Assembly: GCF_016735675.1 (NCBI RefSeq)
Contig: NZ_JAERSG010000003.1
Span: 186,001 to 250,000 of the forward strand
Source: Nocardioides baculatus
GTDB lineage: Bacteria; Actinomycetota; Actinomycetes; Propionibacteriales; Nocardioidaceae
Reading direction: 5' to 3'
DNA length: 64,000 nucleotides
Part shown: piece after piece, positions 25,097-57,304 of the stretch
How positions within the stretch are numbered: position 1 is the stretch's first letter
Layout: each line of letters begins with the position of its first letter
Program-made: the position numbers and the translations under genes
The notes under the pieces: generated by a model
The model's input: only the letters and a program-made list of their open reading frames with translations
Told to the model about the DNA's origin: nothing
Databases searched by the model: none

Positions 25097-25302
25097 GGCG
25101 TCCCCTCTCGTTGCTTGCGCTCGGCGATCGTGACGTCCCCGGCAGCCCAGTGGGTCTCGGGCACCTCGCGCACGACGATGCGCACACTGGCCAACGGCGC
25201 GTCGACGGACTCGCCCGCCGCCTTCGTCAGCGCACTGATCAGCGTCCGGATCTGCTCGGGGGTGCGGCCCTCCGTCAGGGTCACCTCGATGAACGGCATC
25301 AC
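25093..25302 (-). CDS. dmpI: 4-oxalocrotonate tautomerase family protein
   Basis: A 69-residue tautomerase. After removal of Met the chain begins with the catalytic Pro1 (PFIEVTLTEGRTPEQI), and an Arg-rich middle (VRIVVREVPETHWAAG) supplies the other active-site residues. It isomerises the enol and keto forms of 2-hydroxymuconate/4-oxalocrotonate. It is coupled on both sides by ATGA overlaps to the decarboxylase and the dehydrogenase. Confidence 0.88.
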   Translation of the reverse strand: MMPFIEVTLTEGRTPEQIRTLISALTKAAGESVDAPLASVRIVVREVPETHWAAGDVTIAERKQREGTP

Positions 25303-26081
25303 TCGCCTCCGTTGATGAAGATCGAACCCAGGTGGGTGAAGTGCATCGCGGTCGACGAGCTCGGCGGCGCGGGTACGGCGTCGGTCATCCCACCGGTCAG
25401 CACGATCCAGCCGGGCTTGATGACGTGTCCGCGCTTCGCGAGTTCGTTGGCGGCCAGCGCGAGCGCCTCTCCTGGGTGCCCGAGGACCGCAGCGCCGGTC
25501 GCCGAGTCGACGATCTGCCCGTCCACCTCCACCAGCGCTGCCTCCAGCGTCAGGTCCAGTCCGCTCGGCGGCAGCCCGACCGGACCGGTGACGAACACGC
25601 CGGAGGAGGCGTTGTCGGCGGCGACGTCGCCTGCCTTGAACCGGAAGTCGCGGTAGCGGCTGTCGATGATCTCGGCACCGCCCCAGACGGACTCGACCGC
25701 ACGCATCGCGGTGGCACAGCTCACGCCTGGACCGGTGAGCTCCCGGCCCATGACGAAGACGATCTCGGGCTCGATGCGGGGGTGGATCAGCCGGGACTGC
25801 GGGACCGGGTCACCGGCGGGCAGGACCATTGCGTCGGTCAGCCACGCCACGAAGGGCACGTCGATGCCCATCCGCTGCTGCTTGGCCTTGCTGGTCAGGC
25901 CGAGCTTGATGCCGACGAGCGTCTCGCCGCGGTCCAGCCGCGCCTGCAGGTTCCGGTCCTGGATCTCGTAGCCGGTCGCCAGGTCCAGCTCGGGCCACTC
26001 GTCGGTGAACGGTGCCCGATCGACACGCTCGTCCTCGCAGCGCAGCAGATCGGCTCCGACGGAGGCGACGTCCCAGGCCAT
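25299..26081 (-). CDS. 4-oxalocrotonate decarboxylase (2-oxo-3-hexenedioate decarboxylase) family
   Basis: A 260-residue member of the hydratase/decarboxylase (FAH-like) family: GIKLGLTSKAKQQRMGIDVP, HPRIEPEIVFVMGRELTGPG with the metal-binding EPE, and DNASSGVFVTGP. The family also contains 2-hydroxypenta-2,4-dienoate hydratase. Because a second member at 28.2 kb lies next to the acetaldehyde dehydrogenase and this one lies beside the tautomerase, this copy is assigned as the decarboxylase (DmpH-like). It overlaps the aldolase stop by one base. Confidence 0.85.
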   Translation of the reverse strand: MAWDVASVGADLLRCEDERVDRAPFTDEWPELDLATGYEIQDRNLQARLDRGETLVGIKLGLTSKAKQQRMGIDVPFVAWLTDAMVLPAGDPVPQSRLIHPRIEPEIVFVMGRELTGPGVSCATAMRAVESVWGGAEIIDSRYRDFRFKAGDVAADNASSGVFVTGPVGLPPSGLDLTLEAALVEVDGQIVDSATGAAVLGHPGEALALAANELAKRGHVIKPGWIVLTGGMTDAVPAPPSSSTAMHFTHLGSIFINGGE

Positions 26082-27220
26082 CAGCGGACCCCCGACCCGG
26101 CGAGGTCGCCGAGCTCCTTCTCCTGGGCGAGCTCGAGCGCGATGTCGATGATCATGTCCTCCTGGCCGCCGACGTAGCCGTACTCGCCGACCTTCTGCAG
26201 GATCTCGTGCGCCGGCACGCCGTAGCGCTCCGCCGCCCTCTCGGCGTGCAGTAGGAACGAGGAGTAGACGCCGGCGTACCCCTGGGTGATCGAGGACCGG
26301 TCCATCCAGGGCAGTCGTGGGATGAAGGGCCGCACCACCTCCTCGGCCGCCGAGAGCACCTCTCCGAGGTCGATGCCGGTGCGGATGCCCATCCGCTCGA
26401 ACGTGGCCGCGAGGACCTCGGTCGGCGAGTTGCCGGCACCCGCCCCGAGCGCGCACAGGGCACCGTCGATCTGCACCGCGCCGTTCTGGTATGCCAGGAC
26501 GGAGTTGGCAACGCCCATGCTGAGGTTCTGGTGGCCGTGGAACCCCACCTGCGCGCCGTCCCGGCCGACTTCCTCGACCACCGCGGTGATGCGCTCCTGG
26601 GCGTCAGAGAGGATCAAGGCGCCGGCCGAGTCCACGACGTAGACGCACTCCGCACCGGCATCCACCATCGTCCGTGCGTTCCTGGCCAGCACGTCGGGGG
26701 TGGTGCTGTGCGACAGCATCAGGAACCCGACGGTCTCCATGCCCAAGGCCCGTGCCTCGCCGAAGTGCTGGGTCGACACGTCGGCCTCGGTGCAGTGGGT
26801 CGCGATCCGAGCCACGGAGGCTCCGACTGCGTGCGCCTGCTTGAGGTCCCGGACTGTCGCCAGGCCAGGGAGCATCAGCACCGCGATCTTCGCCTGGGTG
26901 GCCTCGTCGACTGCGGCCCGGATGAGGTCGAGCTCGTCGACGAGGCTGAAGCCGTAGTTGAAGCTCGAGCCGCCGAGACCATCGCCGTGGGTCACCTCGA
27001 TCGCCTGGACGCCGGCGCGGTCGAGCGCCGAGACGACCCCGCGCACCTGCTCCTCGGTGAACTGGTGGCTCATCGCGTGCGAGCCGTCTCGCAACGTGGA
27101 GTCGGTGATCCGCAGGTCCCGCTCGCCACCAGCCGCGGTGGCGTTGGCGAGCACCTCCGTCTCGGTCACTTCGCGGTCTACCACCGGAACGTCCTCGGGG
27201 CGGATCGTCATGTCACCCAT
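26081..27220 (-). CDS. dmpG: 4-hydroxy-2-oxovalerate aldolase
   Basis: A 379-residue DmpG-type aldolase that splits 4-hydroxy-2-oxovalerate into pyruvate and acetaldehyde. Motifs seen are ITDSTLRDGSHAMSHQFTEE (catalytic Arg/Asp), EVTHGDGLGGSSFNYGF, the metal-binding GFHGHQNLSMGVANSV, and DGALCALGAGAGNSPTEV. The N-terminus is ~35 residues longer than classic DmpG. MTIRPED three codons downstream is an alternative start. It pairs with the acylating dehydrogenase, with which family members channel acetaldehyde. Confidence 0.93.
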   Translation of the reverse strand: MGDMTIRPEDVPVVDREVTETEVLANATAAGGERDLRITDSTLRDGSHAMSHQFTEEQVRGVVSALDRAGVQAIEVTHGDGLGGSSFNYGFSLVDELDLIRAAVDEATQAKIAVLMLPGLATVRDLKQAHAVGASVARIATHCTEADVSTQHFGEARALGMETVGFLMLSHSTTPDVLARNARTMVDAGAECVYVVDSAGALILSDAQERITAVVEEVGRDGAQVGFHGHQNLSMGVANSVLAYQNGAVQIDGALCALGAGAGNSPTEVLAATFERMGIRTGIDLGEVLSAAEEVVRPFIPRLPWMDRSSITQGYAGVYSSFLLHAERAAERYGVPAHEILQKVGEYGYVGGQEDMIIDIALELAQEKELGDLAGSGVR

Positions 27221-27225: not shown

Positions 27226-28221
27226 TCAGACACCTGCTTCCTGGGGCATCGTTGTCGTGTCGGGCAGGTCGCCGAGGTCTGCCGACGACTTCCACGTGGT
27301 GTCGACGCCGAGCCGGTGCGCGACCATGAGGTCACCCACCCGCGCGGCGGCGGCGGTGATGATGTCGAGGTTGCCGGCGTAGTCGGGCAGGTAGTCACCG
27401 CGCCCCTTGACCTCGATCGGGATGAACACCCGAGCCTGGCCGCGCCAGGCGTCGCGGGCCGGGTCGAACTGGGGTGCGGCGCGCAGGTGGTAGCCCGGGA
27501 CGTACTCCTGGACCGTGGCCTCCATGGCGTGAATCGACTCCAGCAGCCGGTCCTGGAGCTCGCCGGGCTCGCCAGCCTCCGGCGGGATCGCGCAGAACAC
27601 CGTGTTGCGCATCATCAGCGGCGGCTCGACCGGGTTCAGGATGATGATTGCCTTGCCACGCTCTGCCCCGCCGACAGCCTCGACGGCGTTGCTCGTCGTC
27701 TCGGTGAACTCGTCGATGTTGGCGCGGGTGCCGGGCCCGGCGGACCGGCTCGACACCGACGCGACGATCTCGGCGTACGGCACCGGGACGACGGAGGAGA
27801 CGGCGCTGACCATGGGCACGGTGGCCTGTCCCCCGCAGGTGATCATGTTGACGTTCGGGGCGTCGAGGTTGAACGACAGATTGACCGGCGGGCAGAGGTA
27901 GGGCCCCACGGCGGCCGGGGTCAGGTCGACGGCGAGGATGCCGGCCTCGGCATAGCGGGGCGCGTTCGCCGAGTGCGCCTTCGCCGAGGTGGCCTCGAAG
28001 ACGATGTCGGGGAGCTCGTCCTGGGCGAGGAGCCAATCAACACCCTCGGCACTGACCTCCAGCCCGAGCCGCTTCGCGCGGGCGAGGCCGTCCGATGTCG
28101 GGTCGACGCCCACCATGTAGCGGGGCTCGATGATGTCGCTGCGCCGAATTAGCTTGAACATCAGGTCGGTGCCGATGTTGCCGGGCCCGACGATCGCTGC
28201 CGTTGCCTTGCCCTTGCTCAT
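27226..28221 (-). CDS. dmpF: Acetaldehyde dehydrogenase (acylating)
   Basis: A 331-residue DmpF/MhpF-type enzyme turning acetaldehyde, NAD+ and CoA into acetyl-CoA. It has the Rossmann loop [16 protein letters not shown], the catalytic Cys in [33 protein letters not shown] and [15 protein letters not shown]. The ATG at 28221 overlaps the hydratase stop (ATGA). The long frame upstream is antisense-like noise over that hydratase gene. Confidence 0.94.
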
Positions 28222-29036
28222 GCGGTTTCCTCTCGAGAGCTGTCGAAGCGGGCGGTGACGCTGCCCAGCCCGGCGAAGGTGGCGGTGACGGTGTCTCCGG
28301 GGGCCACCGGGACCATGGCGCAGACCGCGCCCGGCAGCACCACGTGGCCCTCCTCGAGCGTCACTCCACGCGCGCCGACGGTGTTGGCGAGCCACACCAG
28401 GGTCCTCAGGGGCGAGCCGAGCACGGCTCCCCCGGCGCCGGTCCCGACCACCGACCCGTTCCTGGTCATCACGGCTCCGGCGAGGCGCAGGTCGACGTCG
28501 CTGATCGCGGTCGGGGTGGACCCGAGCACCAGGGCCCCCGAGCTGGCGTTGTCGGCGATCGTGTCGAACAATCCGATCTTCCAGTCCTCGATGCGGCTGT
28601 CGACGATCTCGAGCGCAGGAAGGACGAAGTCCACCGCAGCCAGCGCCTCGTGCGCGGTGACGCCGGGACCACGCAGAGGCCGCTTCAGCACGAACGCGAC
28701 CTCCGGCTCGATGCGTGGCTGCATGAACCTGTCCGCCGGGATCGGCTCGTGCTCGAGGTAGAAGAAGTCGTCGAGGAGGTGGCCGTAGTCGGGCTGGTCC
28801 ACCCCCAGGAGCCGCTGCATCGCTGCGCTGGTGAGGCCGACCTTGTGGCCCCTGACGGTGCGGCCGGCTTCGGCGAACCAAGAGATCTGCAGCAGCTGGA
28901 TGGCGTAGGCGTCCTCGAGGGTCAGCCCGTCGTACGTCGACGTCAGCGGCTGCACCGGCTTGCCGGTCGTGTAGGCGTCGAAGAGCGACCGCGCCGCTGC
29001 GGTGCGGGTCTCCTGATCGAGTCCAGGGCTTGTCAC
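28218..29036 (-). CDS. 2-hydroxypenta-2,4-dienoate (2-keto-4-pentenoate) hydratase
   Basis: A 272-residue FAH-family hydratase: [40 protein letters not shown] with the metal-binding EPE, and [12 protein letters not shown]. It should add water to 2-hydroxypentadienoate to give 4-hydroxy-2-oxovalerate for the aldolase. The GTG start at 29036 overlaps the reductase stop as GTGA. Assignment as hydratase rather than decarboxylase rests on its neighbours. Confidence 0.87.
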
Positions 29037-30001
29037 AGGTCCAGCTCCAGCCGCTCGCAGGTGGGCTTCGAGCAGCAGATCATCATCTTGTCCATCGCAG
29101 CCTGCTCCCGCTTGGTGAGCACCAGGTCCTGGTGGTCCACGGTCCCGGACAGCACCGGGGTGACACATGAGCCGCAGATCCCGTCGCGGCAGTCGTTCTC
29201 GACCTCGATGCCCAGGGCCAGGACGGTCTCGAGAATGTTCGCGTCCGGGCGCATGCGCAGCGTGTGACCCGACCTCGCCAGCACCAGCTCGTAGTTGTCG
29301 CCGTCGAGCGGGACCGGCTCCGGACGGTCGACACCGGCGCTGCTGAACAGCTCGAACCGGACGATGTCCTGGTCCGGGCCGTGCACGCGCTCGGCTGCCG
29401 CCTGGACCGCACGCAGCAACGGGAGCGGCCCGCAGACGTAGACGAGGCCGTTATCAGGCAGCGCTTTGACGACCTCGTCCAGGTCCGGCCTCCCGTCGGT
29501 GTCCTCGGCGAGGAAGGTGGCCCGGTCACCGAGGGCGCCGAGCCGCGTGCGGAAGGCCATCGTGCCGCGTGAGCGCCCCCCGTAGGTGAGCGTGAACGGG
29601 CGGCCCTCGCGGTCCAGGTGCTCGGCGAACGTCATGATCGGGGTGATGCCGACACCGCCGGCGACCAGGGCATGGAAGGGCGCGTCCTCGAGGGCGAAGC
29701 TCTGCTTGGGGCGGGTCACCAGCAGCCGCTGGCCGACCCTCAGCTCGTCGTGGACGTACCGCGACCCCCCGCGCCCCTCGGGCTCGCGCAGCACCGCGAT
29801 CTGGTAGTGGGTCAGGTCGGAGGGATCTCCGCAGAGGGAGTACTGCCGGGTGCTGCCGTCGGGCACGTACACGTCGATGTGCGCGCCCGGCTCCCAGACG
29901 GGCAGCGGGTCGTTGCTCTCGATGCGCTCCAGGCGCAGGGACAGGACCCCTTCCGCCTCGAGGGTCATCTGGGTGACGAGGAGCTCGCGCTGCTCAACCA
30001 T
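29033..30001 (-). CDS. PDR/VanB-type FMN and [2Fe-2S] oxidoreductase (Rieske oxygenase reductase)
   Basis: A 322-residue phthalate-dioxygenase-reductase-type protein that would pass electrons from NADH to the Rieske oxygenase. The order is an FMN-binding domain ([11 protein letters not shown]), an NAD domain ([18 protein letters not shown] ... [10 protein letters not shown]), and a C-terminal plant-type ferredoxin with Cys ligands in [13 protein letters not shown] and a final Cys in MMICCSKP. It overlaps the HAD gene by eight bases and the hydratase by four, inside the same operon as the oxygenase. Confidence 0.92.
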
Positions 30002-30659
30002 GGGCCGGCCCCTCCGCCAGGCCGAGGAGCTTGCGCACCTCGGCGAACGACGTGTCAGGGTCCGACACGTCGAACCACACCGACGGGATCCCGAGCGCCT
30101 CTGCACCGCGGATGTTCGAACTCTGGTCGTCGAGGAAGACCATGTCGGCGAAGCCCACGTCGAGTCGCTCGGAGAGCAGCTCGTAGAGGCGCGGCGCGGG
30201 CTTGAGATGGCCCTCGACCGAGCCGTCGACCACCACGTCCACGTCGCCGACGATCTCGATCCCGTCGATCCACTCCTCGGTGTGGAACGCGCGCAAGTCG
30301 TTGGTCAGGATGGCGATCTTCAGCCCCTCGGCGTGTGCGTCGCGGACCAGGGCTCGCGCCTGCTCCCGCACCAGCGCGGGGCGGGGCGGCTCGTAAAGGT
30401 GGGCGATCATCGCGCGGATGTCGGACCCGTGACCGGTATGGCGGTCCCACTCGAGGGCTCGCTCGTCCCAGTAGTGGCGCTCGGTGATCCGCCCCGCCTG
30501 GAGGTCCGCCCACGTCGGGTCAGGCTGGTCCACCGTGGCCAACGGGCCACGCTCGTGGAGCAGAGCGTGGGCCGGTGTCCCGGGCAGCTCGGCCACGAGC
30601 TCGAAGGGCGTCAGCAGCACCGGGCCGCCGAAGTCCAGGACGAGTGCAGGTCGGGTCAT
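29994..30659 (-). CDS. HAD-superfamily hydrolase (putative phosphatase)
   Basis: A 221-residue HAD protein. Motif I is LVLDFGGPVLLTPFE, in which the first Asp is present but the usual second Asp is Gly, as in the common DFGG subgroup. Motif II is in IAILTNDLRAFH, motif III is the Lys in GHLKPAPRLYELL and motif IV is in MVFLDDQSSNIRGA. In this operon, beside phenylphosphate-synthase-like subunits, an aryl-phosphate phosphatase role is attractive but inferred. It is embedded between the zinc-ribbon and reductase genes with a one-base gap and an eight-base overlap. Confidence 0.85.
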   Translation of the reverse strand: MTRPALVLDFGGPVLLTPFELVAELPGTPAHALLHERGPLATVDQPDPTWADLQAGRITERHYWDERALEWDRHTGHGSDIRAMIAHLYEPPRPALVREQARALVRDAHAEGLKIAILTNDLRAFHTEEWIDGIEIVGDVDVVVDGSVEGHLKPAPRLYELLSERLDVGFADMVFLDDQSSNIRGAEALGIPSVWFDVSDPDTSFAEVRKLLGLAEGPAHG

Positions 30660-30660
30660 C

Positions 30661-30957
30661 TCAGTGCTCCGGCTCCTCGATGATGGCCCGGTCGAAGAGC
30701 ACGACGTTGCCGGTCCACTTGCAGGCCGCGCACCAGGTCAGGAACACCCGGTCGGTGCCGCTCCACCACTCGGTGATCAGCCCGCGATCCAGCGCAGCAG
30801 AGCAGCCCGGGCAGAACTTGGGCTTGTCCAGGAGGTGGTGGGCGGCATCGGAGGCGAACCAGTCACCCGGAGGCGGCAGCCGGTACGGGTCGGGAGGTAG
30901 TGCCGGCATCGGCCCGTGATGGGCCGCGCGTCGCGCCTCCTCGTTGAGGTCAGGCAC
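30661..30957 (-). CDS. Small zinc-ribbon protein linked to the Rieske oxygenase
   Basis: A 98-residue protein with two CxxC knuckles (KPKFCPGCSAALDRG and TWCAACKWTGNVV), the spacing of a zinc ribbon. No named family was recognised. The GTG start overlaps the Rieske oxygenase stop by eight bases (GTGCCTGA) and the HAD gene starts one base after its stop, so it is made with the oxygenase. It could be an assembly or accessory factor for the oxygenase or the phosphorylating enzyme; this is a guess from position only. Confidence 0.7.
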   Translation of the reverse strand: MPDLNEEARRAAHHGPMPALPPDPYRLPPPGDWFASDAAHHLLDKPKFCPGCSAALDRGLITEWWSGTDRVFLTWCAACKWTGNVVLFDRAIIEEPEH

Positions 30958-32206
30958 CGGAGCCTGCCTTGTCGCGCGTCTCCGCCGCAGCGTGGTGCAG
31001 GGCGAGCAGCTCCTCACGGATCGGGCTGTAGCGCATCGACCCGCCGTTGATCCACGCATCGACGAACTCCGTGCCGGCCCCGAACTTGTCCTTCTCGCAC
31101 GGCAGGTGGATCACGTCGTGCTTGTCGCGCACCACACCCGGCGGGTCCTCGCCGTCCTCGACCGCGGCCATGGCCTCCTTGAACATCTTGCGGAGCATGG
31201 CGACGCCCTGGTCGGAGCGTCCGAGGTGTTCCTGCGACCGGTCGGTGATCGCGCCCTGCGAGACCCACGCCATCACGTCCTGCCCCTCGACGTAGTCGGT
31301 GATGAACTCACCGTTCTCGTCGCGGTACGGGAACTCGTAGACCGAGGGCCGATCCTGCTTCTCCCACTCCCCTCCCTCGGGGTGGTGGAGGGTGTAGAAG
31401 AGCTTCCAGGTCGTCGTGTCGTCGATGGGGACCCGGATCTGCATCTGGTCGATCCACTGGCCACCGACGCGCATGCCGTAGGGGAACATCAACGGGTGGC
31501 CGATGGCCCAGTCGTCGCTGTCCTCGCCGTGACCCTCGAGCACGCGGCGCTTGATGATGCCGTACTCGAACTCCTCGAACGCGACCTTGATGTGCTTCTT
31601 CTGGAAGGACTTCGGTGCGTCAAATCCCTGGGTCTCGCCGAGGAACTGGAAGTACGCGCCGTGCAGCCACTCGACGTGGTGCGGGTCGACGGAGTTCTCC
31701 ATGATCTGCAGCCAGTTGCATGGCAACGTCGCCGTGCCGACCTCCCGGATGCCGTCGAGCACGTAGACGTCGAAGGGAGGCAGCTCGGGCACCGGACCGG
31801 GACCGACGTAGACCCACACCATCCCGCCCATCGTCCGGGCGGAGCCGGCCTTGGCCTTGATCTTCTCGCGGAACGTGGTGTTGTCGTTCTCGGCCGGCTG
31901 CTCGACGCACTGTCCGTCGAAGTCGTACTTCCAGCCGTGGTAGCCGCAGCGGATGCCGTCCTCGTGCACGATGCCGTAGGTCAGCGACGCACGACGGTGC
32001 GGGCAGGCTTCGCCGATGATGCCGTACTTGCCGGACGGGGTCTTGTAGAGCGTCCAGTTCTCCCCGAGCAACCGGACGGTCTTGCTGGGCCTGGCGTCGA
32101 AGTCCTGCTCGAACGCGATCGGGTACCAGTAGCGGCGCAGCAGCTCGCCCATCCTGGTGCCGGGTCCGACACGGGTCATTTCTTCGTTCTGTTCAACGGT
32201 CAGCAT
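30950..32206 (-). CDS. Rieske [2Fe-2S] non-haem iron oxygenase, large subunit
   Basis: A 418-residue oxygenase of the phthalate dioxygenase / O-demethylase-like group (alpha subunit only, no beta subunit nearby). The Rieske ligands are C68-x-H70 (ACPHRRASL) and C87-x2-H90 (RCGYHGWKYDFDG). The mononuclear iron motif is NSVDPHHVEWLHG with D174, H177 and H182. AAGGAG precedes the ATG. It would hydroxylate or demethylate an aromatic ring using the reductase at 29.0 kb. Its place between the phosphorylating enzyme and the ring-cleavage genes suggests that the substrate may be an aryl phosphate. Confidence 0.92.
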   Translation of the reverse strand: MLTVEQNEEMTRVGPGTRMGELLRRYWYPIAFEQDFDARPSKTVRLLGENWTLYKTPSGKYGIIGEACPHRRASLTYGIVHEDGIRCGYHGWKYDFDGQCVEQPAENDNTTFREKIKAKAGSARTMGGMVWVYVGPGPVPELPPFDVYVLDGIREVGTATLPCNWLQIMENSVDPHHVEWLHGAYFQFLGETQGFDAPKSFQKKHIKVAFEEFEYGIIKRRVLEGHGEDSDDWAIGHPLMFPYGMRVGGQWIDQMQIRVPIDDTTTWKLFYTLHHPEGGEWEKQDRPSVYEFPYRDENGEFITDYVEGQDVMAWVSQGAITDRSQEHLGRSDQGVAMLRKMFKEAMAAVEDGEDPPGVVRDKHDVIHLPCEKDKFGAGTEFVDAWINGGSMRYSPIREELLALHHAAAETRDKAGSGA

Positions 32207-32268
32207 CGATGTTGCTCCTTCTCGTCTGGTGGTCCGGGGCGCCCGGTCCGGCTGGAGAGCGCGTGCTC

Positions 32269-34080
32269 TCAGTCCAGGACCGTGACCTTCCCGGTGTTGC
32301 CGTCGACCCGGAGCATCTGTCCGGTCTTGAGGTTCTTGGTGCCGAAGGCCGTGCCGGTGACCGCCGGCAGGCCGTACTCGCGGCAGACGATCGCTGCGTG
32401 GCTCATCATTCCGCCGACGTCGGTCACCGTGGCTTTGATCTTCCCGAAGACCGGTGCCCACGAGGGGGCGGTCAGCGGGGCCACGAGGATCTCCCCGTCC
32501 TGGATCTCGCCGATCTGGTCAGCGTTGAAGATCACCCGCGCCGGTCCCTCGACCAGCCCCGGCGACGCGGCGAACCCGCTCAGCGACCCGTCGTCGGAGT
32601 CACTGCCCGTGTTCAGCCAGGCCGCCACCGAGTCGGAGGTGATGCCCCACAACATGACGGTGAAAGGCTCGGTCACGACCTCAGGCGGAACGCCGAGAGC
32701 GGGCGGCGGCGACCAGGTCTTGAGGGACTCGTGGACGCCGTGGCGACGCTCGATCTCCGCCGGCCAGTACGCCGGACCGCGCGAGGGAGCGCCCACCGCC
32801 CATCCGGCGTAGAGGTCGAAGAGCACGTCGGCGAGCTCGTTCCGGCGGAACATGAACACGTCGTCGACCTCGGTGATGAAGCCTGCGGTCTTGAGCACCT
32901 CGCCGAGCTCGCGCATCTTGCGCCAGATCACCGAGTGCGCCCAGTGCTCGACGTAAAAGTTGTGGTTCTCGACGTAGGGGAAGACGGTGCGCGAGAGGCC
33001 GAGCTTGCCGTCAAAGGCGGCGCGGTCCTCGTCGGAGTCGAGCAGCTCGCGGTACTCCGACACGACCCGGTCGCGCTCGGTGTGCAGCGCCTCGACCGGT
33101 CGGTTGAGGTCGACGCCCTCCTTCACCTTGGCGATGTAGTCGGTGATGTAGCCCAACGGCACCTCGACGTTCTGGATCCAGATCTTGTCGGAGTGGTAGA
33201 AGCCGGACCCGGTGGAGAAGTTGAACCAGGGCTCGGCGGCCTCGTCCCACTCGGCGATCCAGGCACGGCCGGCCTCGTCGGTCTCGAGCTTGGCCCACAC
33301 GTCCTCGGGGCTGCCGCCGTCGAAGTGACTGTCGATGCCGCTGCTCACGGCCAGCCGGGCGAGCGACTTGAGGTGGTCGTCGGGCTTGAACAGGTCGACG
33401 TGCACGCCGGCGACCATCTTGGCGATCGCGAGGTCGGGGATCGAGGGGAAGGCGGCTTTGCAGAACCCGAAGAAGTCGAGGTAGGCGGCGTAGCCGAGGT
33501 TGAGGAACTCGAAGTGGTGCTGCCACAACGTGACGACGTGGTCCAGCAGGCGGTGGTACGTCGACAGCAGCCGGTCACCCGAACCGCGCCCGGCACCCGA
33601 GGTGATGACGTCGAGGTCCTCCATCTCCGGCAGGGCGCTGAAGTCGAGCTCGGTCATCTGCTGGACGAGGGCCCGCACCTTGACCAGCCAGTCGTCGTAC
33701 AACCGGTCCCAGTTGGCGAAGTAGAAGCCGGCCCGCTCCATGAAGTGCGGGACCCGGGCCTCGATGTCGGCCTCGGGGGCGGGGACGGGGCTCAGGAAGA
33801 CGTAGCCGTTCAGGATGCGGAAGTCGACGCCGTAGGCGGGCGGCACCAGGTAGTGCCGGGTGTTGTACTGCCCGAGCGAGGCGATGGCCACCTCGAAGAC
33901 GTGGGCGTCCCAGGGCGTGAGGGCCTCAGGCCAGTGGACGCCGTCGTGGAACCAGAAGCCCGCGTCCTCGTAGTCGCGTCGCTCCTCGGAGAAGACCGCG
34001 GAGTAGGAGTAGAGGTCCTGCCAGCCCTCGGCGCCGTCGGGCGCCTCGATCTCGAAGGGGCTCGGGAAGCGATCAGCCAT
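32269..34080 (-). CDS. PEP-utilising swivelling-domain protein, phenylphosphate-synthase alpha (PpsA/CreI)-like
   Basis: A 603-residue protein whose C-terminus is the phosphohistidine swivelling domain of PEP-synthase enzymes: DVGGMMSHAAIVCREYGLPA, with the phospho-accepting His at about residue 561, then LKTGQMLRVDGNTGKVTV. The rest matches no classic PEP synthase. Thauera phenylphosphate synthase has a ~70 kDa subunit of this build with His569 and a separate ~40 kDa ATP-grasp subunit, exactly the two-gene split seen here. Corynebacterium CreI/CreH, which phosphorylate p-cresol, are built alike. The likely job is ATP-dependent phosphorylation of a phenol via phosphohistidine. The third Thauera subunit (PpsC, CBS domains) is absent. 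Confidence 0.82.
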   Translation of the reverse strand: MADRFPSPFEIEAPDGAEGWQDLYSYSAVFSEERRDYEDAGFWFHDGVHWPEALTPWDAHVFEVAIASLGQYNTRHYLVPPAYGVDFRILNGYVFLSPVPAPEADIEARVPHFMERAGFYFANWDRLYDDWLVKVRALVQQMTELDFSALPEMEDLDVITSGAGRGSGDRLLSTYHRLLDHVVTLWQHHFEFLNLGYAAYLDFFGFCKAAFPSIPDLAIAKMVAGVHVDLFKPDDHLKSLARLAVSSGIDSHFDGGSPEDVWAKLETDEAGRAWIAEWDEAAEPWFNFSTGSGFYHSDKIWIQNVEVPLGYITDYIAKVKEGVDLNRPVEALHTERDRVVSEYRELLDSDEDRAAFDGKLGLSRTVFPYVENHNFYVEHWAHSVIWRKMRELGEVLKTAGFITEVDDVFMFRRNELADVLFDLYAGWAVGAPSRGPAYWPAEIERRHGVHESLKTWSPPPALGVPPEVVTEPFTVMLWGITSDSVAAWLNTGSDSDDGSLSGFAASPGLVEGPARVIFNADQIGEIQDGEILVAPLTAPSWAPVFGKIKATVTDVGGMMSHAAIVCREYGLPAVTGTAFGTKNLKTGQMLRVDGNTGKVTVLD

Positions 34081-34149
34081 GGGAATCAGTCCTTGCGTCT
34101 GGGTGGGTTCGAGTCGGAGGGGATGCGCGTAGCGCTGTGCTGACCCGAG

Positions 34150-35277
34150 TCAGCCCGTCGCGGCCCCCTTTCTGGCGGACAGCGGATTGACGAGGGTGTC
34201 GACGATCGAGGCCATCAGGTCCGTCTCGCGGGCGACGGAGTGGCGCTTCTTGCTCCACACGGTCTCGGGGCGCGCCTGCAAGAGCACCACGTCGGAGCCG
34301 GACGGCAGGTCGTCGTCGAGCGCCCACTCGATGTCCTGGGGGCAGCCGTAGTGCTTCTCCGCGGTCCTGGCCAGCCGTGCGATGGCGATGATCTCGTCGT
34401 CGGTGAGCGACGGTGCGTTGACCTTGTCGTCGGACAGCTCGACCCGGGTGACCCTGGGTGCGGCGCCGTCGTCGGACTCGGTGAGCAGGTGGGCGTGGGT
34501 CTTGGGGCTGATCGTGCGGCGGTTGATGGTCCACATGACCTTGTCGACCAGGAAGTTGTCGGGCGTGACGTCGCCGGAGACGACGCCCTCGCCGAAGCCC
34601 CAGGCGGAGTCGATGCAGATGCCGGACCTGTCTCCGTTGCTGGGGTCGAGAGTGAAGGCGACCCCGGCGGCGCGCGGACGGACCATCTTCTGCACGGCGA
34701 CGGCCATGTCGACCTCGTCGTGCGGGTAGCCCATCTCGGCGCGGTAGACGATGGCGCGCTCGGTGAACAGGCTGGCCCAGCACTCGCGGACCTTCTGGCG
34801 CACGGCGTCGACCCCGCACACCCAGAGATAGGTGTCGTGCTCACCGGCGAAGGACGCGTCCGGGGAGTCCTCCGACGTCGCAGACGAGCGCACGGCGACG
34901 GGCACGTCCGGCACGCCGGCGAGCGTGCACAGCTCGGCGTAGCTCTCGTCGAGGAGTCTCTGGTGCTCGTCCAACAGCCGCCAGCTCGTCACCATCTCGC
35001 GCGCCCGGGCCGCTGCCTCCTTGAGCGCGGCGGAGTCGGTGATGTCGGTGGCAGCGAGGAGCTCGCTGATGCTCGGCATCAGACCGGAGGCCTGGCCGGC
35101 CTCGGCGAACGCTCGGGTGGTGATCGCGAAGCCCGGCGGGACGGGAAGTCCTGCCTGGCTCATGACCCCCAGCGAGGCGCACTTGCCACCGACGTGCGGG
35201 TGGTGCTCGGTGGCAAGACTTCCGAACGGCACGATGCTCGGGTACTCGGTCATCTCGTGTGCTGTCATGTCAGTCAT
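34150..35277 (-). CDS. PEP/pyruvate-binding ATP-grasp subunit, phenylphosphate-synthase beta (PpsB/CreH)-like
   Basis: A 375-residue protein equal to the N-terminal ATP-binding half of PEP synthase: VGGKCASLGVMSQAGLPVPP, VAVRSSATSEDSPDASFAGE, GVAFTLDPSNGDRSGICIDS, AWGFGEGVVSGDVTPD and DIEWALDD. It lacks the swivelling and PEP-binding domains, the former being supplied by the 603-residue neighbour. Together they should use ATP to phosphorylate a His and then a phenolic hydroxyl. The ATG overlaps the histidine-phosphatase stop (ATGA); a 69-base gap follows before the alpha-like subunit. Confidence 0.85.
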   Translation of the reverse strand: MTDMTAHEMTEYPSIVPFGSLATEHHPHVGGKCASLGVMSQAGLPVPPGFAITTRAFAEAGQASGLMPSISELLAATDITDSAALKEAAARAREMVTSWRLLDEHQRLLDESYAELCTLAGVPDVPVAVRSSATSEDSPDASFAGEHDTYLWVCGVDAVRQKVRECWASLFTERAIVYRAEMGYPHDEVDMAVAVQKMVRPRAAGVAFTLDPSNGDRSGICIDSAWGFGEGVVSGDVTPDNFLVDKVMWTINRRTISPKTHAHLLTESDDGAAPRVTRVELSDDKVNAPSLTDDEIIAIARLARTAEKHYGCPQDIEWALDDDLPSGSDVVLLQARPETVWSKKRHSVARETDLMASIVDTLVNPLSARKGAATG

Positions 35278-36314
35278 TCCTGGAAGCGGGGGTCGGAGTT
35301 GGCGGGCAGGGCATCGAGGTCGGGGATCACGACCTCCTGGACGCGGTTGCGGTAGAGCACGAGCGCGGTGTGGCCGCCCGCGACGAGCCGAACGCGCACG
35401 AACTCGGTGTTGAAGGGCTCGCCCGGGTCGTAGCCCATCGCGAGGGTCGCGAACGCCCGGATCGGGCCGGAGTGCGTCGCGACCACGACCGTGTCGGCCG
35501 ATGTCCGCGCGTGGGCGTCGAGGATGCCGCGCCAGAAGCGACGCACGCACGAGACGGGCGGTTCGAAGTAGAGCATCGGCATCGTCAGCCAGTGGGTGAT
35601 GGGGTCGCCACCGCCCTTCTGGATGCCCCAGAACCGGTCGATGTCCACCAGCCAGCCGGGCCGTTCGCCCAGGCCGACGCGCTCGTACTTCTCGATCTCC
35701 CGGTGATAGATCCGGAAGGCGCTGGTCACGTCGCGCGGACCCTCGGGGGTAGCGACCTCGAAGTTGCGGAAGTTGGGGTCGTCGAGCAGCTCGCCGATCT
35801 CGGGGCGACCCCTACCGAAGAGCTCGACGTTGTCGAGGAGGCCGCGCCGTATGTGCTCGGCGGTCTGGCGGGCGCGATTGGTCGGGGCGCACAACAGCTC
35901 GAGCTTTGTGCCGTCGGTGACCCGGCGGGCGAGCTCCTGCCCGCGCCGGTGGGCCTGCCAGGAGCCGAGCGGGGTGAGGCCGGACTCCGAGGAGTAGCCC
36001 TGTGTCTCCCCGTGCCGGACGAGGTAGATGTCGCAGTCGACGTCGGCGATCTGGTCACGGCGCTCCGGGACGATCTCCTTGGTGCGGGTCACCTCGGCCC
36101 ACGCGCGCGAGGAGCCGACGACGTTGCCGTCGTACTCCACGGGCTCCGCGCCGGCACCCCGGTTGCGGAACTGACGCAGGTAGAGCGGGACGGACTCGTC
36201 GGACTCGTCGGGCGTGGCCGGCGGCGCTCCCTTGCGGGACTGGTGACGGTTGAGATACGCCGGGGCGTCCGGTCGCTCGGTGCGTGGCAGGGAGGCCGGC
36301 TTCTCGATGGTCAT
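35274..36314 (-). CDS. Histidine-phosphatase (phosphoglycerate-mutase-like) family protein
   Basis: A 346-residue protein with an unusual ~94-residue N-terminal extension, then the branch signature IYLVRHGETQGYSSESGLTP (catalytic His about residue 101), LCAPTNRARQTAEHI and the second His in VVVATHSGPIRAFATLAMGY. It is coupled to the ATP-grasp gene. In an operon that appears to make an aryl phosphate, the simplest role is removal of the phosphate after oxygenation or proofreading of dead-end phosphates. The substrate is inferred. Confidence 0.85.
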   Translation of the reverse strand: MTIEKPASLPRTERPDAPAYLNRHQSRKGAPPATPDESDESVPLYLRQFRNRGAGAEPVEYDGNVVGSSRAWAEVTRTKEIVPERRDQIADVDCDIYLVRHGETQGYSSESGLTPLGSWQAHRRGQELARRVTDGTKLELLCAPTNRARQTAEHIRRGLLDNVELFGRGRPEIGELLDDPNFRNFEVATPEGPRDVTSAFRIYHREIEKYERVGLGERPGWLVDIDRFWGIQKGGGDPITHWLTMPMLYFEPPVSCVRRFWRGILDAHARTSADTVVVATHSGPIRAFATLAMGYDPGEPFNTEFVRVRLVAGGHTALVLYRNRVQEVVIPDLDALPANSDPRFQE

Positions 36315-36322
36315 CGCCGGCC

Positions 36323-37234
36323 TCAGCTGTGCACCGTGAGGAACTGCTGGTTCACGACGCCGTCGTAGTAGAACATCGCCCGCCCCATCTCGGCCTCGGT
36401 CCAGGTCACCGGCTCGGCCCCGGGGTCGACCCAGTAGCCGCCGGTGAACATCTCGTTGCGATTGCCGACCGGGTCGAAGAAGTAGAGGCACTGACCGCGC
36501 GTGACACCGTGGCGTGTGGGGTTCATCTCGATGTTGACGCCGTGGTAGACGCAGGCGTCTGCGGCGTTGCGCAGGTCGTTCCAGCCGTCCACCCAGAAGG
36601 CAAAGTGGTGCAGCCCCTGGTTGGGCCCGGTGATGAAGGCGATGTCGTGCGAGCGGTGTGACACCTCGAGCCAGCTGGCGATCTGGTAGCCGTCGTCGCC
36701 GACGATCTGCTCGGTGAGCCGGAAGTCGAGGTGCTCGGTGAGGAACCTCGTGTTGGTGTCTACCTCCTCCGCCGTCAGGAACACGTGGTCGACCCTCGGC
36801 GGCGCGATGCCGACGAGACCCATCGGGCGTGGTGGCGGGTTGGTCTGCGGGAGCAGGTTGCCGACCTGCTGCATGCCGTAGACCAGCTCCATCTCGTGCC
36901 CGCTGGGCAGGAGGAACCGGATCGACGTGCCGTGGCCGGGCGCCCATTCGTCGGCCGCATACCGGCGTACGGCGATGCCGGCTGCCTCGAGGCGCTGCTG
37001 GTAGTGGTCGAGGTCCTCCGCATCGGTAACCTTGAACCCGAAGTGGTTGAGCCCGTGGGTCGGCTCGTGGGTCAGGACGACACTGTGGTGCTGGTGCTCG
37101 TCCCAGCACTTCATGAAGACGCGCGAGGAGTCGCGCGCGGTCTCGATCATGCCGATGACCTCGGAGTAGTAGGCGGTCGCGAGCTCGAGGTCCGGCACGC
37201 GGAGCTCGACGTGGGACAGGCGCAGGATCGTCAT
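36323..37234 (-). CDS. Catechol 2,3-dioxygenase (extradiol, VOC fold), copy 2
   Basis: A 303-residue type I extradiol dioxygenase that opens a catechol ring next to the two hydroxyls. Iron ligands line up with XylE: H150 (PPRVDHVFL), H209/210 (GLHHFAFW) and E261 (NRNEMFTGGY). Its length is that of classic catechol 2,3-dioxygenase. It overlaps copy 1 by one base (TGATG). The two copies are clearly diverged rather than a recent duplication, so they may differ in substrate. Confidence 0.92.
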   Translation of the reverse strand: MTILRLSHVELRVPDLELATAYYSEVIGMIETARDSSRVFMKCWDEHQHHSVVLTHEPTHGLNHFGFKVTDAEDLDHYQQRLEAAGIAVRRYAADEWAPGHGTSIRFLLPSGHEMELVYGMQQVGNLLPQTNPPPRPMGLVGIAPPRVDHVFLTAEEVDTNTRFLTEHLDFRLTEQIVGDDGYQIASWLEVSHRSHDIAFITGPNQGLHHFAFWVDGWNDLRNAADACVYHGVNIEMNPTRHGVTRGQCLYFFDPVGNRNEMFTGGYWVDPGAEPVTWTEAEMGRAMFYYDGVVNQQFLTVHS

Positions 37235-38325
37235 CAGGTGTGCACTCTCATGAAGCGTTCGTTGAGCTCGCCCTCGTAGTAGAAGACGGCGCGACCGATG
37301 TTGTCCTCGGTCCAGGTCAGGGTCGGGAAGTCGGGATCGGGGCGGTAGCCACCGGTGAAGACCTCGTTGCGGGTGCCGAGGGGGTCGAAGAAGTAGATGG
37401 TCGAGCCGCGAGTGATGCCGTGACGCGTCGGACCGACGTCGAGCTGGATGCCGTTGTAGGCGAGCACGTCGGCAGCGTCACGGACGTCGTCCCAGTCGTC
37501 GAGCCAGAACGCGAAGTGGTGCAGGCCTCCGTTGGGGCCGTGCACGATCGCCAGGTCGTGCGGTGAGTGGGAGCGCTCCAGCCAGGTGCCCAGCTGGTGG
37601 CCGTTCCCGTCGAGGAGCTGCTCGGTGATGCGGAACCCCAGCACGTCCATGTAGAACTGCGTCGACTCGCCGACCTCCTCGGCGTTGATGAGCATGTGGT
37701 CCATCCGCGGCGGCGCGATCATGTCGCGCGGGAAGGGCTGATCGTCCGACGCGTTGTCGGGCAGGTGCCGCGGCCGGGTCGTCCCGACCTTCTCCACGTC
37801 CGCGACGAGCTCCATGACGTGGCCGCTTGGCGTGGAGAACCGGATCGACTCCCCCTGGCCCAGCGTCTGCCCCTTGCTGATGCGCTCCACTGGGAACCCG
37901 TAGCGCGACACCCGGTTCTCCAGGTCAGCGAGGTCGTCCTCGTGGTGGACCTTGAACGACATCAGGTCCATCCCCATGCGTGGCGCATACCGCAAACGCA
38001 GGGAGTGGTGGTCCTCTTCGTCCCAGCACTTGAGGTAGACCGAGTCCTCGGTGCGGGCGGTGACGTCCATGCCCATCACGCCGGTGTAGTAGGCGGTGGC
38101 CAGGTCGAGGTCGGTGCAGGTGACGTCTACGTGACCGAGCCGCAGGATTCCGCGAGGACGGCCGGCGACGGTGCCGCGGGATTGCTGCCGCGAGTCGGAC
38201 GGGTCGACCCGCAGACCGTCGGCCGGTTCACCGAACGGAAAGTCGCGGGTCGTGCCTGCTGGAGTCCCCTCGGCGAGATCGACATGTCCCGCCTCGGGAG
38301 CTGTGACGCCCTTCACATTTGCCAT
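37234..38325 (-). CDS. Catechol 2,3-dioxygenase (extradiol, VOC fold), copy 1 with N-terminal extension
   Basis: A 363-residue extradiol dioxygenase, first gene of the leftward operon. The ligand motifs are present: PPRMDHMLI, GLHHFAFWLDDW and TRNEVFTGGY. About 57 extra residues (MANVKGVTAPEAGH... to RPRGILRLGH) precede the usual start of the fold and are Asp/Pro/Gly-rich. ATG 38325 is the best start; no good ribosome site was found for an internal start. The divergent operator region begins one base upstream. Confidence 0.9.
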   Translation of the reverse strand: MANVKGVTAPEAGHVDLAEGTPAGTTRDFPFGEPADGLRVDPSDSRQQSRGTVAGRPRGILRLGHVDVTCTDLDLATAYYTGVMGMDVTARTEDSVYLKCWDEEDHHSLRLRYAPRMGMDLMSFKVHHEDDLADLENRVSRYGFPVERISKGQTLGQGESIRFSTPSGHVMELVADVEKVGTTRPRHLPDNASDDQPFPRDMIAPPRMDHMLINAEEVGESTQFYMDVLGFRITEQLLDGNGHQLGTWLERSHSPHDLAIVHGPNGGLHHFAFWLDDWDDVRDAADVLAYNGIQLDVGPTRHGITRGSTIYFFDPLGTRNEVFTGGYRPDPDFPTLTWTEDNIGRAVFYYEGELNERFMRVHT

Positions 38326-38397
38326 GTCCTGAACGTAGGACGGTCTGGAACCAAGCCGGATACGGTGTTCCTCCATACGGAACGCAAAGTCCTACGT
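38326..38397. promoter_or_regulatory. Divergent promoter with three inverted repeats (likely IclR operators)
   Basis: ACGTAGGAC (38333-38341) and GTCCTACGT (38389-38397) are a perfect 9-bp inverted pair 47 bases apart. GTTCC-N7-GGAAC (38367-38383) lies between them, and GTCCT-N6-AGGAC (38326-38341) abuts the dioxygenase start. The region separates the leftward catabolic operon from the regulator genes, so it should hold both promoters and the regulator sites. Confidence 0.6.
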
Positions 38398-38420: not shown

Positions 38421-39077
38421 ATGGTGGACAGCAAGGCGACCCCCGAGGCCAAGCGCGAGGCGGTGCGCGACTACGTCTGGGCCGTGCACACGACCTACCT
38501 CGACCATGTCCAGCACCTGCCGCCCGGTGAGCGGGCTCGGCTACCCCTGGTGGCGGCCGACAACGTCACGGTCATCGCAGCGGCCGCCCGCGGGCTGCAC
38601 CTGATCGCCACCTCCGATGCGCTCCCTGCTCCCATCGGGCAGGAGGTCGAGATCGTCGACGAGCACCTCGGCACGCGGTGGTCACTACGGTTCTTCGACC
38701 CGTCGGTGATCCCCGCCCTCGGTGTGTCGCCCGATGACAGCCCGGAGTCGGTCCGGGCAACCCTCGGCGTCTCCGGCGCGATCTACCACCTGACCGTCGC
38801 GGACGGTGGTGGCCTGACCCCGCACCACGCCCAGCACTCCGGCGTCGCGTTGGCCAACCTGCACGCGAAGACGTCTCGCGACCTCGAGGGTCTCCGGCGT
38901 GAGCTCCCGCGTCAGGCCGCCCTGGTGGACGAGTTCGCGGCATGCGTACGCCTCGGCCTGGACCGAGCCGCGGCACTGGTGGCCGCCGAGCTCTCCGGCG
39001 GGAGGCTGGTCCCGGCGCCGGGGACGACCGCAGCTTCCTCCCTCGCCGCCCTGCTCGAGGACGTTCGGTCGCGATGA
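38421..39077 (+). CDS. Unknown protein cotranscribed with an IclR regulator
   Basis: A 218-residue protein starting MVDSKATPEAKREAVRDYVW. No family was recognised. It is predicted soluble, with an alpha/beta middle (LRFFDPSVIPALGVSPDDSP, SGAIYHLTVADGGGLTPHHA) and a helical end. Its stop overlaps the IclR start (ATGA). The location suggests a role in sensing or regulating the catabolic operon, but nothing in the sequence proves it. Confidence 0.75.
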   Translation: MVDSKATPEAKREAVRDYVWAVHTTYLDHVQHLPPGERARLPLVAADNVTVIAAAARGLHLIATSDALPAPIGQEVEIVDEHLGTRWSLRFFDPSVIPALGVSPDDSPESVRATLGVSGAIYHLTVADGGGLTPHHAQHSGVALANLHAKTSRDLEGLRRELPRQAALVDEFAACVRLGLDRAAALVAAELSGGRLVPAPGTTAASSLAALLEDVRSR

Positions 39078-39826
39078 CGCTCTCCAGCGTCGCCACCGCT
39101 GCCCGGATCCTGCGCGAGTTCGGCAAGCACAGCACCCAGCTGGGAGTCAGCCAGCTCGCCCGTCGTGTCGGGGTCGGCAAGAGCACGGCCCACCGCGTCC
39201 TGTGGACGCTGGTCGAGGAAGGCCTCGTCGAGAAGGTCGAGGAGACCGGCCTGTTCCGGCTCACCTCGACGATGGGCTCGCTGGGCGCCAGCGCCGAGAC
39301 CTCGCAGCGGCTGCACGAGGCAGCCACACACCCCCTCGACCAGCTGCGCACCAAGACCCGCGGCACGATGCACGTTGCCATCCTCGACGGCATCGACGTG
39401 CTCTACGTCGAGCGCCGCGAGGGTCTCGGCACCCTCCAGGTATTTCGTGCCGTCGGGAGTCGCAACTCCGCCTACATGACGGCCAGTGGGAAGGTGCTGC
39501 TCGCGTTCCTCCCCGCCGAGCAGCAGCGAAGCCTCATCGAGGAGATACGCCTGACCCCGAAGACAGCGCGGACGATCACCACGCGCGCGGCGTTCCTCGC
39601 CGAGCTCCATCGCGTGCGCAGCCAGGGCTATGGCGAGAACCGCGGCGAGTGGCAACCAGGCATGTGCTCGATCGCGGCACCGATCCGCGACCCCCTGGGC
39701 CAGGTGGTCGCCTCGGTCTCCGTGGCGGAGTACGTCGAGGACGTCGAGCCCGGCCTGCGTCACCTCGCCGGCCCGATCATCGAGACCGCGAAACGCATCT
39801 CGGCCGGACTGGGATGGCACGAGTGA
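39074..39826 (+). CDS. IclR-family transcriptional regulator
   Basis: A 250-residue regulator with an N-terminal winged helix (LGVSQLARRVGVGKSTAHRV) and a C-terminal effector domain (RGTMHVAILDGIDVLYVERR; YMTASGKVLLAFLP; GYGENRGEWQPGMCSIAAPI). Aromatic catabolic operons are often run by IclR proteins. It is divergent from the meta-cleavage operon and most likely binds the inverted repeats at 38326-38397. It overlaps the next gene by up to 13 bases. Confidence 0.92.
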   Translation: MTLSSVATAARILREFGKHSTQLGVSQLARRVGVGKSTAHRVLWTLVEEGLVEKVEETGLFRLTSTMGSLGASAETSQRLHEAATHPLDQLRTKTRGTMHVAILDGIDVLYVERREGLGTLQVFRAVGSRNSAYMTASGKVLLAFLPAEQQRSLIEEIRLTPKTARTITTRAAFLAELHRVRSQGYGENRGEWQPGMCSIAAPIRDPLGQVVASVSVAEYVEDVEPGLRHLAGPIIETAKRISAGLGWHE

Positions 39827-43180: not shown

Positions 43181-43183
43181 GGG

Positions 43184-45339: not shown

Positions 45340-45346
45340 AGCTGGT

Positions 45347-46126: not shown

Positions 46127-46127
46127 G

Positions 46128-57291: not shown

Positions 57292-57304
57292 GACGCGGTC
57301 GACC

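Follow-up and report, generated by a model that had tools for sequence, protein, structure and literature searches.

A conserved actinobacterial gene block pairs a phenolic-type dikinase with a Rieske oxygenase and probably encodes a phosphorylation-first aerobic pathway

Introduction

To our knowledge, the known aerobic routes from phenol to catechol use a monooxygenase on the free phenol. Phenolic substrates are phosphorylated in the Cre pathway of Corynebacterium (CreHI, 4-cresol), in the Hpe pathway (HpeHI, acetovanillone) and in the anaerobic Pps/Ppc pathway of Thauera and Azoarcus, and in aniline-type systems a Rieske enzyme forms the catechol from a substrate that a ligase has activated, with a hydrolase limiting the intermediate (PMC11335346). 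We analysed a 64,000-nt stretch of Nocardioides baculatus (assembly GCF_016735675.1, contig NZ_JAERSG010000003.1, positions 186,001 to 250,000), hereafter the window, whose minus strand carries a two-component dikinase, a Rieske oxygenase and a meta-cleavage pathway in one gene run. A preliminary description of the window had proposed that a phenol is phosphorylated, oxidised by the Rieske enzyme and meta-cleaved as a catechol. The phenolic type of the dikinase, its conserved pairing with the Rieske gene and the finding that no dihydrodiol dehydrogenase is conserved beside that gene speak for this proposal, and we consider it probable, on gene content, that the block encodes a phosphorylation-first aerobic catabolic pathway running from dikinase to Rieske oxygenase to meta-cleavage. 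Every reaction, the substrate (phenol, an alkylphenol, guaiacol or aniline), the order of the steps and the fate of the phosphate are what we infer from these features.

Results

A dikinase of the phenolic type

The dikinase is divided between two adjacent minus-strand genes, as expected of a two-component enzyme, with the ATP-grasp domain (PF01326, 353 bits) on one subunit (34150..35277, PpsB/CreI/HpeI-like) and the swivel domain (PF00391) on the swivel and substrate subunit (32269..34080, PpsA/CreH/HpeH-like), which scored 866.9 bits against NF006150 (cut-off 650). The swivel subunit carries the T/SxxGGxxxH motif with its catalytic histidine in the form TDVGGMMSH, with Met, not Thr, two residues ahead of H561, and both M559 and H561 were invariant in 48 aligned rows. 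The closest named match of the dikinase subunit came from Nocardioides allogilvus (99% identity). Over about 600 residues, the swivel subunit was 55% identical to that of a cre-type plasmid cluster of Rhodococcus ruber, 49% to its Azoarcus counterpart from a pps-ppc cluster, and 49% and 45% to HpeH-like proteins of Rhodococcus JS3073 and Rhizobium, respectively, the compared proteins being members of cre-, pps- and hpe-type clusters and not the characterised Corynebacterium or Thauera proteins. The ATP-grasp subunit was 51% identical to its cre-type and 48% to its pps-type counterpart, and its best PDB match was 9goj, a stand-alone ATP-grasp chain whose visible N-terminal stretch is identical to the HpeI-like protein of JS3073. 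The best NCBIfam family was NF006150 for the swivel subunits of the window and the R. ruber cre-type cluster, NF006152 for the pps-type and NF006153 for the hpe-type.

H561 aligned with H581 of the JS3073 HpeH-like protein, which has Cys580 before it, and with H569 of the Azoarcus PpsA-like protein. Since this numbering agrees with the motif histidine given for HpeH (581, preceded by Cys580; PMC12167813) and for the Thauera swivel subunit (569; PMC7500099), the identification of the dikinase is calibrated. A Pfam search of the dikinase found ATP-binding and swivel domains only, with no phosphoenolpyruvate (PEP)/pyruvate-binding domain, and in a sequence-profile comparison with rifampin phosphotransferase the swivel domain alone matched. 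Because of this domain content and an above-cut-off PRK08296-family score shared with the cre-, pps- and hpe-type subunits, we rejected a PEP-synthase or pyruvate function. Action on pyruvate, which the preliminary description had named as a possible refutation, thus became unlikely, its two phenylphosphate-synthase-like subunits were recovered (NF006150 above cut-off, 45–55% identity to phenolic-type subunits), and the dikinase is, judged by its sequence, of the phenolic type (CreH/HpeH/PpsA group).

The same comparisons bear on an aromatic amine as substrate, with the dikinase making phenylphosphoamidate from aniline and the Rieske enzyme converting it to catechol. Pas of Desulfatiglans anilini is related to phenylphosphate synthase; in a coupled assay it accepted aniline, and it formed phenylphosphate from phenol as well (PMC7500099). 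That a Rieske enzyme can oxidise glutamyl-activated aniline to catechol is established (PMC11335346). However, Pas-alpha is about 27–28% identical to PpsA (PMC7500099), against the 45–55% between the window subunit and phenol-type subunits, and a second, divergent dikinase beside a Rieske gene (L110, L166; 27–28% identical to that of the window) would fit an amine role better. Because of its identity to phenol-type subunits we favour phenols over aniline, and an amine substrate appears very improbable.

In a quick tree of 92 dikinase subunits, whose long branches leave some placings unsure, the Rieske-linked rows fell into one 69-row group (SH-aLRT 96), next to which three cre-type rows branch; L104 and L107 sit inside this group and have no Rieske gene in the sequence examined. 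Blocks from metagenome-assembled genomes labelled Bifidobacterium breve, Rubrivirga and Acidobacteria (L093, L100, L114, L070) nest among actinobacterial ones, and these contigs are possibly mislabelled or misbinned.

Dikinase and Rieske genes are conserved partners

From a scan with the dikinase subunit we kept the best 80 of 186 confirmed stretches, and the counts use loci with enough sequence on the relevant side. Of 69 loci with at least 2 kb of downstream sequence, 57 have a Rieske gene no more than 4 kb from the dikinase, and the ATP-grasp gene lay within 3 kb of the swivel gene in 73 of 74. Near the dikinase we also found a histidine phosphatase (52/68 loci), a catechol dioxygenase (48/63), an orphan protein (42/59), a zinc-ribbon protein (56/65) and, within 5 kb, a member of the HAD superfamily (33/56). 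A phosphatase candidate was present in all 46 loci with enough flank, being the histidine phosphatase in 42 and HAD only in 4. The blocks came from Nocardioides, N. allogilvus and N. psychrotolerans for example, and from other soil genera, Pseudonocardia, Candidatus Nanopelagicales, Acidimicrobiia and unclassified Actinomycetota, and the dikinase–Rieske pair was kept where lower-pathway genes vary. Chance clustering was rejected because the same arrangement recurs across many genomes.

Starting from the Rieske gene avoids the bias of fetching loci by the kinase. One search covered 394 class genomes at E 1e-80 (19 places) and a second covered 396 genomes at E 1e-60 (13 new places). At E 1e-80 or better, the Rieske gene was found in 16 and the dikinase in 21 of the 394 class genomes. 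With limits of at least 61% identity for the Rieske enzyme and at least 63% for the dikinase subunit, chosen after a gap in the values was seen, the two genes marked the identical 15 genomes, from four families; 6 further dikinases in these class genomes (at most 55% identity) had no Rieske gene of at least 61% alongside. A dikinase lay within 6 kb at 25 of the 32 places (24 of the main type and 1 of the second, divergent type, L166). Four places (G145:C124, G161:C26, G650, G699; 49–54% identity) had a Gfo/Idh/MocA dehydrogenase and no dikinase, two were at contig ends (G354, with a dikinase on another contig, and G718), and the distant G235 (41–44%) had neither. Among the top 4 of 590 Rieske-matching plasmid records, three (48–49%) had a Gfo/Idh gene without a dikinase and one (39%) had neither. 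The dikinase and the Rieske oxygenase, whose co-occurrence the preliminary description had put forward as part of a check, are conserved partners.

Conserved gene order is no proof that the product of one enzyme is the substrate of the next, and phosphorylation might instead serve parallel trapping or detoxification, with the phosphatase returning free phenol and the Rieske enzyme acting on free phenol or another compound. HpeHI has a sub-micromolar KM, and trapping was proposed as the purpose of phosphorylation (PMC12167813). Against such a role stand a dikinase–Rieske pair that persists while the lower-pathway genes vary, and a dikinase that occupies the place where relatives of this Rieske enzyme have a dehydrogenase; those relatives, in turn, seem suited to dianionic aromatics, and phenol is not dianionic. 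Parallel trapping is therefore quite unlikely in our judgement.

A dehydrogenase stands in the place of the dikinase at related Rieske genes

The Rieske oxygenase alpha subunit (30950..32206, minus strand, likely start 32206; PF00355) is of the phthalate-dioxygenase type, with 7fhr and 7fjl as best PDB matches. Its iron ligands, described earlier as intact, are indeed so: conservation of the Rieske ligands C68/H70/C87/H90, the bridging D174 and the two Fe-binding histidines H177/H182 was at least 95% among 72 dikinase-linked and at least 80% among 7 dehydrogenase-linked relatives, and the alignment of these two groups revealed no clear phosphate-specific residues. An 82-amino-acid zinc-ribbon-like protein (30661..30909, minus strand; C33/C36/C60/C63, all four invariant in 57 relatives), which had no match in Pfam or NCBIfam, trails this Rieske family with the dikinase and sometimes without it (Peribacillus L128, L164, L165), and may therefore serve the oxygenase in assembly or electron transfer.

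Dikinase-less Rieske relatives of 48–54% identity with readable flanks were accompanied by a Gfo/Idh/MocA dehydrogenase in 7 of 7 cases, or 7 of 9 when two distant ones are counted. No Gfo/Idh gene was detected within 6 kb of the 25 dikinase-linked Rieske places (tblastn, three queries, E 1e-6), a search that distant homologues could escape and in which several places have short flanks. In a mixed set of 84 unique Rieske sequences, biased in that most loci were fetched by the dikinase, a script counted 71 with a dikinase and no Gfo gene, 1 with both (L056), 7 with a Gfo gene and no dikinase (L127, L128, L130, L164, L165, L209, L210) and 5 with neither; on rereading these became 72, 1, 7 and 4, L149 being the place of L166 with its second-type dikinase. 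The four with neither comprise two contig ends (L152, L211) and two distant sequences (L129, 39%; L167, 41%). Mapped onto the Rieske tree, the switch between dikinase and dehydrogenase as partner takes 2 changes.

Six of the 7 dehydrogenase-linked loci share a further protein for which Pfam shows only NMT1/phosphonate-binding similarity and which, we presume, resembles 4,5-dihydroxyphthalate decarboxylase. The one such locus checked has a LigB-type ring-cleavage gene, and the Caballeronia loci have an open reading frame (ORF) resembling a tripartite-transporter subunit, as judged by eye. By gene content, the dehydrogenase-linked relatives resemble dioxygenases that act on dicarboxylic aromatics and depend on a dihydrodiol dehydrogenase.

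At the dikinase-linked Rieske genes, no conserved cis-dihydrodiol dehydrogenase partner of the phthalate-dioxygenase kind was found. Pfam assigned short-chain dehydrogenase/reductase (SDR) domains to just 4 of 116 neighbour ORFs (116 of 182 non-core ORFs, within 7.2 kb, 61 loci), a count from which SDRs resembling the one at 22929 in the window had been filtered beforehand. As none is kept beside these Rieske genes, cis-2,3-dihydroxylation with a conserved dehydrogenase was not supported. The presence of a kinase together with the absence of the dihydrodiol dehydrogenase would be expected if the phosphate makes that enzyme unnecessary, as in aniline oxidation, and thus fits an activated substrate. 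Where an aniline-type system replaced naphthalene dioxygenase, the dihydrodiol dehydrogenase gene is truncated (PMC11335346); in our own reading, this gene may have become unnecessary.

The Rieske subunit also gave partial matches to LigXa_C and VanA_C, families that include O-demethylases. In this alternative, guaiacol would be phosphorylated, the Rieske enzyme would remove the methyl group to give catechol monophosphate and formaldehyde, and the histidine phosphatase would free catechol. O-demethylation could proceed without a dehydrogenase but not without the phosphatase, in line with how often the latter is found, but the closest dikinase-less relatives (48–54%) occur with Gfo/Idh and mostly with the phthalate-pathway-like protein, pointing to ring dihydroxylation. 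Likewise, no formaldehyde-specific family was among the 25 commonest in the 116 neighbour ORFs, 3 of which carry zinc-type alcohol dehydrogenase domains. We therefore consider O-demethylation unlikely.

Proposed pathway

In the pathway that we propose, the dikinase would move a phosphate from ATP via phospho-H561 onto the hydroxyl group of its substrate, either phenol itself or a phenol with simple substituents, which would thereby be trapped as the aryl phosphate. This product would be a dianionic aromatic, like dicarboxylic aromatics, and would be oxidised by the Rieske oxygenase and its reductase. We somewhat prefer attack at C1–C2, in which oxygen would be added at the phosphate-bearing carbon, so that phosphate could leave and the ring could re-aromatise by itself to catechol without a dihydrodiol dehydrogenase; the histidine phosphatase would then limit the aryl phosphate or clear by-products. 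The Hpe phosphatase HpeD prefers the carboxylated product, that is, it acts after the substrate change (PMC9618137). Because of this preference and the phosphatase candidate in 46/46 loci, ortho-hydroxylation to catechol monophosphate, followed by hydrolysis by the histidine phosphatase, is nearly as likely a course. Catechol would finally be meta-cleaved and enter the standard lower pathway.

Catechol and methylcatechols suit the two ring-cleavage enzymes as well as the lower pathway, and the conserved core has no side-chain enzyme. The phenol-hydroxylase families PF02332, PF07976 and PF03241 had no match in the organism's own genome in a search whose controls matched, with P450s and other flavin hydroxylases outside its range.

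Several observations weigh against this pathway. Twelve of the 69 loci had no Rieske gene, all with dikinases 52–61% identical to that of the window. We know of no aryl phosphate that serves as a Rieske substrate, and most basic residues conserved in dikinase-linked Rieske enzymes are also conserved in dehydrogenase-linked ones. The dikinase-linked locus L056 has a nearby Gfo/Idh gene as well, the window SDR at 22929, of the kind filtered out above, has counterparts in L047, L049 and weakly in L072 (80 loci), and a dehydrogenase could lie elsewhere in the genomes. By analogy, the phosphatase order in the Hpe pathway favours catechol monophosphate over direct phosphate loss, and the Cre pathway phosphatase likewise acts after the substrate change.

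If the proposed pathway is correct, it would assign a function to a block that occurs across Actinomycetota, point to a novel class of Rieske substrate and give aryl phosphates a further use beside P450 (Cre) and carboxylases (Hpe, Pps). The reason for spending ATP on phenols would also become testable, whether trace trapping, an anionic handle for the oxygenase or an unnecessary dehydrogenase.

Divergent dikinases beside other Rieske enzymes

Ten plasmid records matched over at least 80% of the dikinase subunit, and we examined every one. The haloarchaeal ones (4/4; L038, L039, L040 and L041, of which L039 and L041 are nearly identical; dikinase 39–40% identical) each have an alpha-beta Rieske oxygenase together with a metallophosphoesterase at a distance of about 7 kb or less. 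They pair a divergent dikinase and a phosphatase with a different Rieske type. These four plasmids also carry a 158-amino-acid orphan and an aldehyde dehydrogenase.

The second divergent two-component dikinase, 27–28% identical to that of the window, was seen in L110:4393-7327, L166:4529-7584, L217, L218, L219 and L220, with a CDGGGMLSH motif in L110 and L166, both beside HAD and Rieske genes. No adjacent Rieske gene was found in the examined sequence of L217–L220 (the whole 8.3-kb contig for L218; L219 and L220 are more distant), and with two places for and four against, the link of this type to Rieske enzymes is weak. It lies beside meta-cleavage genes in L220 and is possibly an aromatic-amine type.

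We put forward only tentatively, as a doubtful possibility, that phosphate is a traceless activating and leaving group for Rieske dioxygenases that arose more than once (the actinobacterial block, L110/L166, haloarchaea). If so, phenol would become catechol by dioxygenation of phenyl phosphate without a dehydrogenase, as a counterpart of aniline oxidation.

Extent and gene content of the operon

The minus-strand genes form a tight series from 38325 to 23654 with short gaps or overlaps. All genes named in the preliminary description are present on this strand, with agreeing domain and family profile matches; its extent of 28218-38325 was too short, as the operon runs on to 23654 and includes the tautomerase at 25093-25299. 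The two catechol 2,3-dioxygenases (37234..38325 and 36323..37234) both exceed the curated TIGR03211 cut-off of 320.2, with 366.8 and 372 bits. The likely start of the first is 38325; an ATG at 38376 falls within a conserved palindrome. Invariant residues are H210, H270 and E321 in the first enzyme (48 relatives aligned), which we take to be metal ligands, H150, H210 and E261 in the second (53 relatives), and R100-H101, R147 and H281 in the branch 1 histidine phosphatase (35274..36314; PF00300; 55 relatives); presumably those of all three enzymes are catalytic.

Downstream of the Rieske and zinc-ribbon genes lies the HAD-superfamily protein (29994..30659; PF00702), earlier called a HAD phosphatase. 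Its superfamily is upheld, and its phosphatase role is uncertain because motif I (DFGG, D9-F-G11) has no second Asp. The oxygenase reductase (29033..30001; PF00175 + PF00111) has a C-terminal 2Fe-2S domain. Then follow a 2-oxopent-4-enoate hydratase-like protein (28218..29036; TIGR03220 285.3 bits, under its cut-off of 408.8), acetaldehyde dehydrogenase (27226..28221; PF09290), 4-hydroxy-2-oxovalerate aldolase (26081..27220; PF00682 + PF07836), an FAA-hydrolase-fold protein (25299..26081; PF01557) that we assume from its position to be a probable 4-oxalocrotonate decarboxylase, 4-oxalocrotonate tautomerase (25093..25299; PF01361, 2.4e-14) and an aldehyde dehydrogenase (23654..25096; PF00171) of the hydroxymuconic semialdehyde type by position. 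With two ring-cleavage enzymes above the TIGR03211 cut-off, a hydratase-like protein, tautomerase, decarboxylase-like protein, aldolase and two aldehyde dehydrogenases, the operon has the genes of a meta-cleavage pathway.

Regulation and neighbouring genes

The gap between the first catechol 2,3-dioxygenase gene and the divergent orphan gene contains a semi-palindromic possible operator, GTTCCGTATGGAGGAAC (38367..38383, minus strand), with a single match in the window and 0 in 100 shuffles. Of 48 block loci, 34 have a clear operator-like site in this gap, one that no more than 4 of 20 random segments from its own locus could equal; for the best site in each of the remaining 14 loci, at least 9 of 20 segments did so. 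The conserved 218-amino-acid orphan (38421..39077, plus strand) runs into the gene for an IclR-family regulator (38942..39826, plus strand; PF01614, PF09339; true start probably near 39077) and, of 46 loci with sufficient flanking sequence, 44 have it beside an IclR gene. Its H60, H123, H135 and H139 are invariant and H23, H136 and H148 nearly so, and family-level Pfam and PDB profile searches (family of 49) gave no credible relative. Two orphan protein families are tied to the block.

Next on the plus strand lies an unusual fusion of a Rieske-type ferredoxin domain to an alpha/beta hydrolase (39823..41019; PF00355 + PF00561), which would work in a hydrolytic branch. The region 41819-50191 holds an MFS transporter, 2Fe-2S/CoxG, the FAD and molybdopterin subunits of a xanthine-dehydrogenase-type hydroxylase, an enoyl-CoA hydratase and an AMP-forming ligase; these genes may encode an aromatic acid coenzyme A pathway. 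A single-strand-binding protein, a small helix-turn-helix protein and a tyrosine integrase at 56746-61230 suggest an integrated mobile element; ARAGORN found no tRNA genes in the window.

Comparison with known systems

Of the dikinase types compared, the cre-type is the closest to that of the window, with 55% identity and the same best NCBIfam family. We infer from gene content that the cre-type clusters on Rhodococcus plasmids are Cre pathways, and they share with the window an aerobic actinomycetotal host and an IclR regulator. In contrast to the window, they combine the kinase with a cytochrome P450 and ferredoxin/reductase, an SDR, an aldehyde dehydrogenase and an HD-domain protein, and their gene run encodes neither a Rieske alpha subunit nor a catechol dioxygenase. 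In the Hpe pathway, too, the ATP-grasp and swivel parts of the dikinase are separate subunits, and a phosphatase takes part (PMC9618137, PMC12167813), but that pathway proceeds by biotin-dependent carboxylation instead of oxygenation, and its swivel subunit is 49% identical. The anaerobic Pps/Ppc pathway, with dikinase subunits of 48–49% identity, also converts phenol to phenylphosphate, and there a phenylphosphate carboxylase and a CBS-domain subunit follow, with no oxygenase. Pfam scans found no cytochrome P450 among the scanned operon genes, and profile scans found neither a biotin-dependent or UbiD-type carboxylase nor a glutamine-synthetase-like ligase in the operon. A plain Cre, Hpe or Pps pathway was rejected because the operon has no P450 or carboxylase.

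The best solved-structure matches of the window Rieske subunit are of the phthalate 4,5-dioxygenase type, whose members act on dianionic substrates; the phthalate-type relatives seen here differ in having a Gfo/Idh dehydrogenase, not a dikinase, as partner. Among the matches listed in the open-access literature, with most subscription papers outside this scope, no description paired a dikinase with a Rieske oxygenase, in agreement with the statement in the preliminary description that no aerobic pathway with this set was known. The nearest parallel in logic is provided by the aniline and 1-naphthylamine dioxygenase systems (AtdA1-A5, NpaA1-A5), which combine ATP-dependent activation, a hydrolase, a Rieske oxygenase, a reductase and a catechol-type product (PMC11335346), but use a glutamine-synthetase-like ligase and an amide in place of dikinase and phosphate, the activating proteins being unrelated. 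Set beside these systems, the dikinase and the meta-cleavage parts are of known kinds, and their combination, together with the Rieske substrate that it implies, is a credible novelty.

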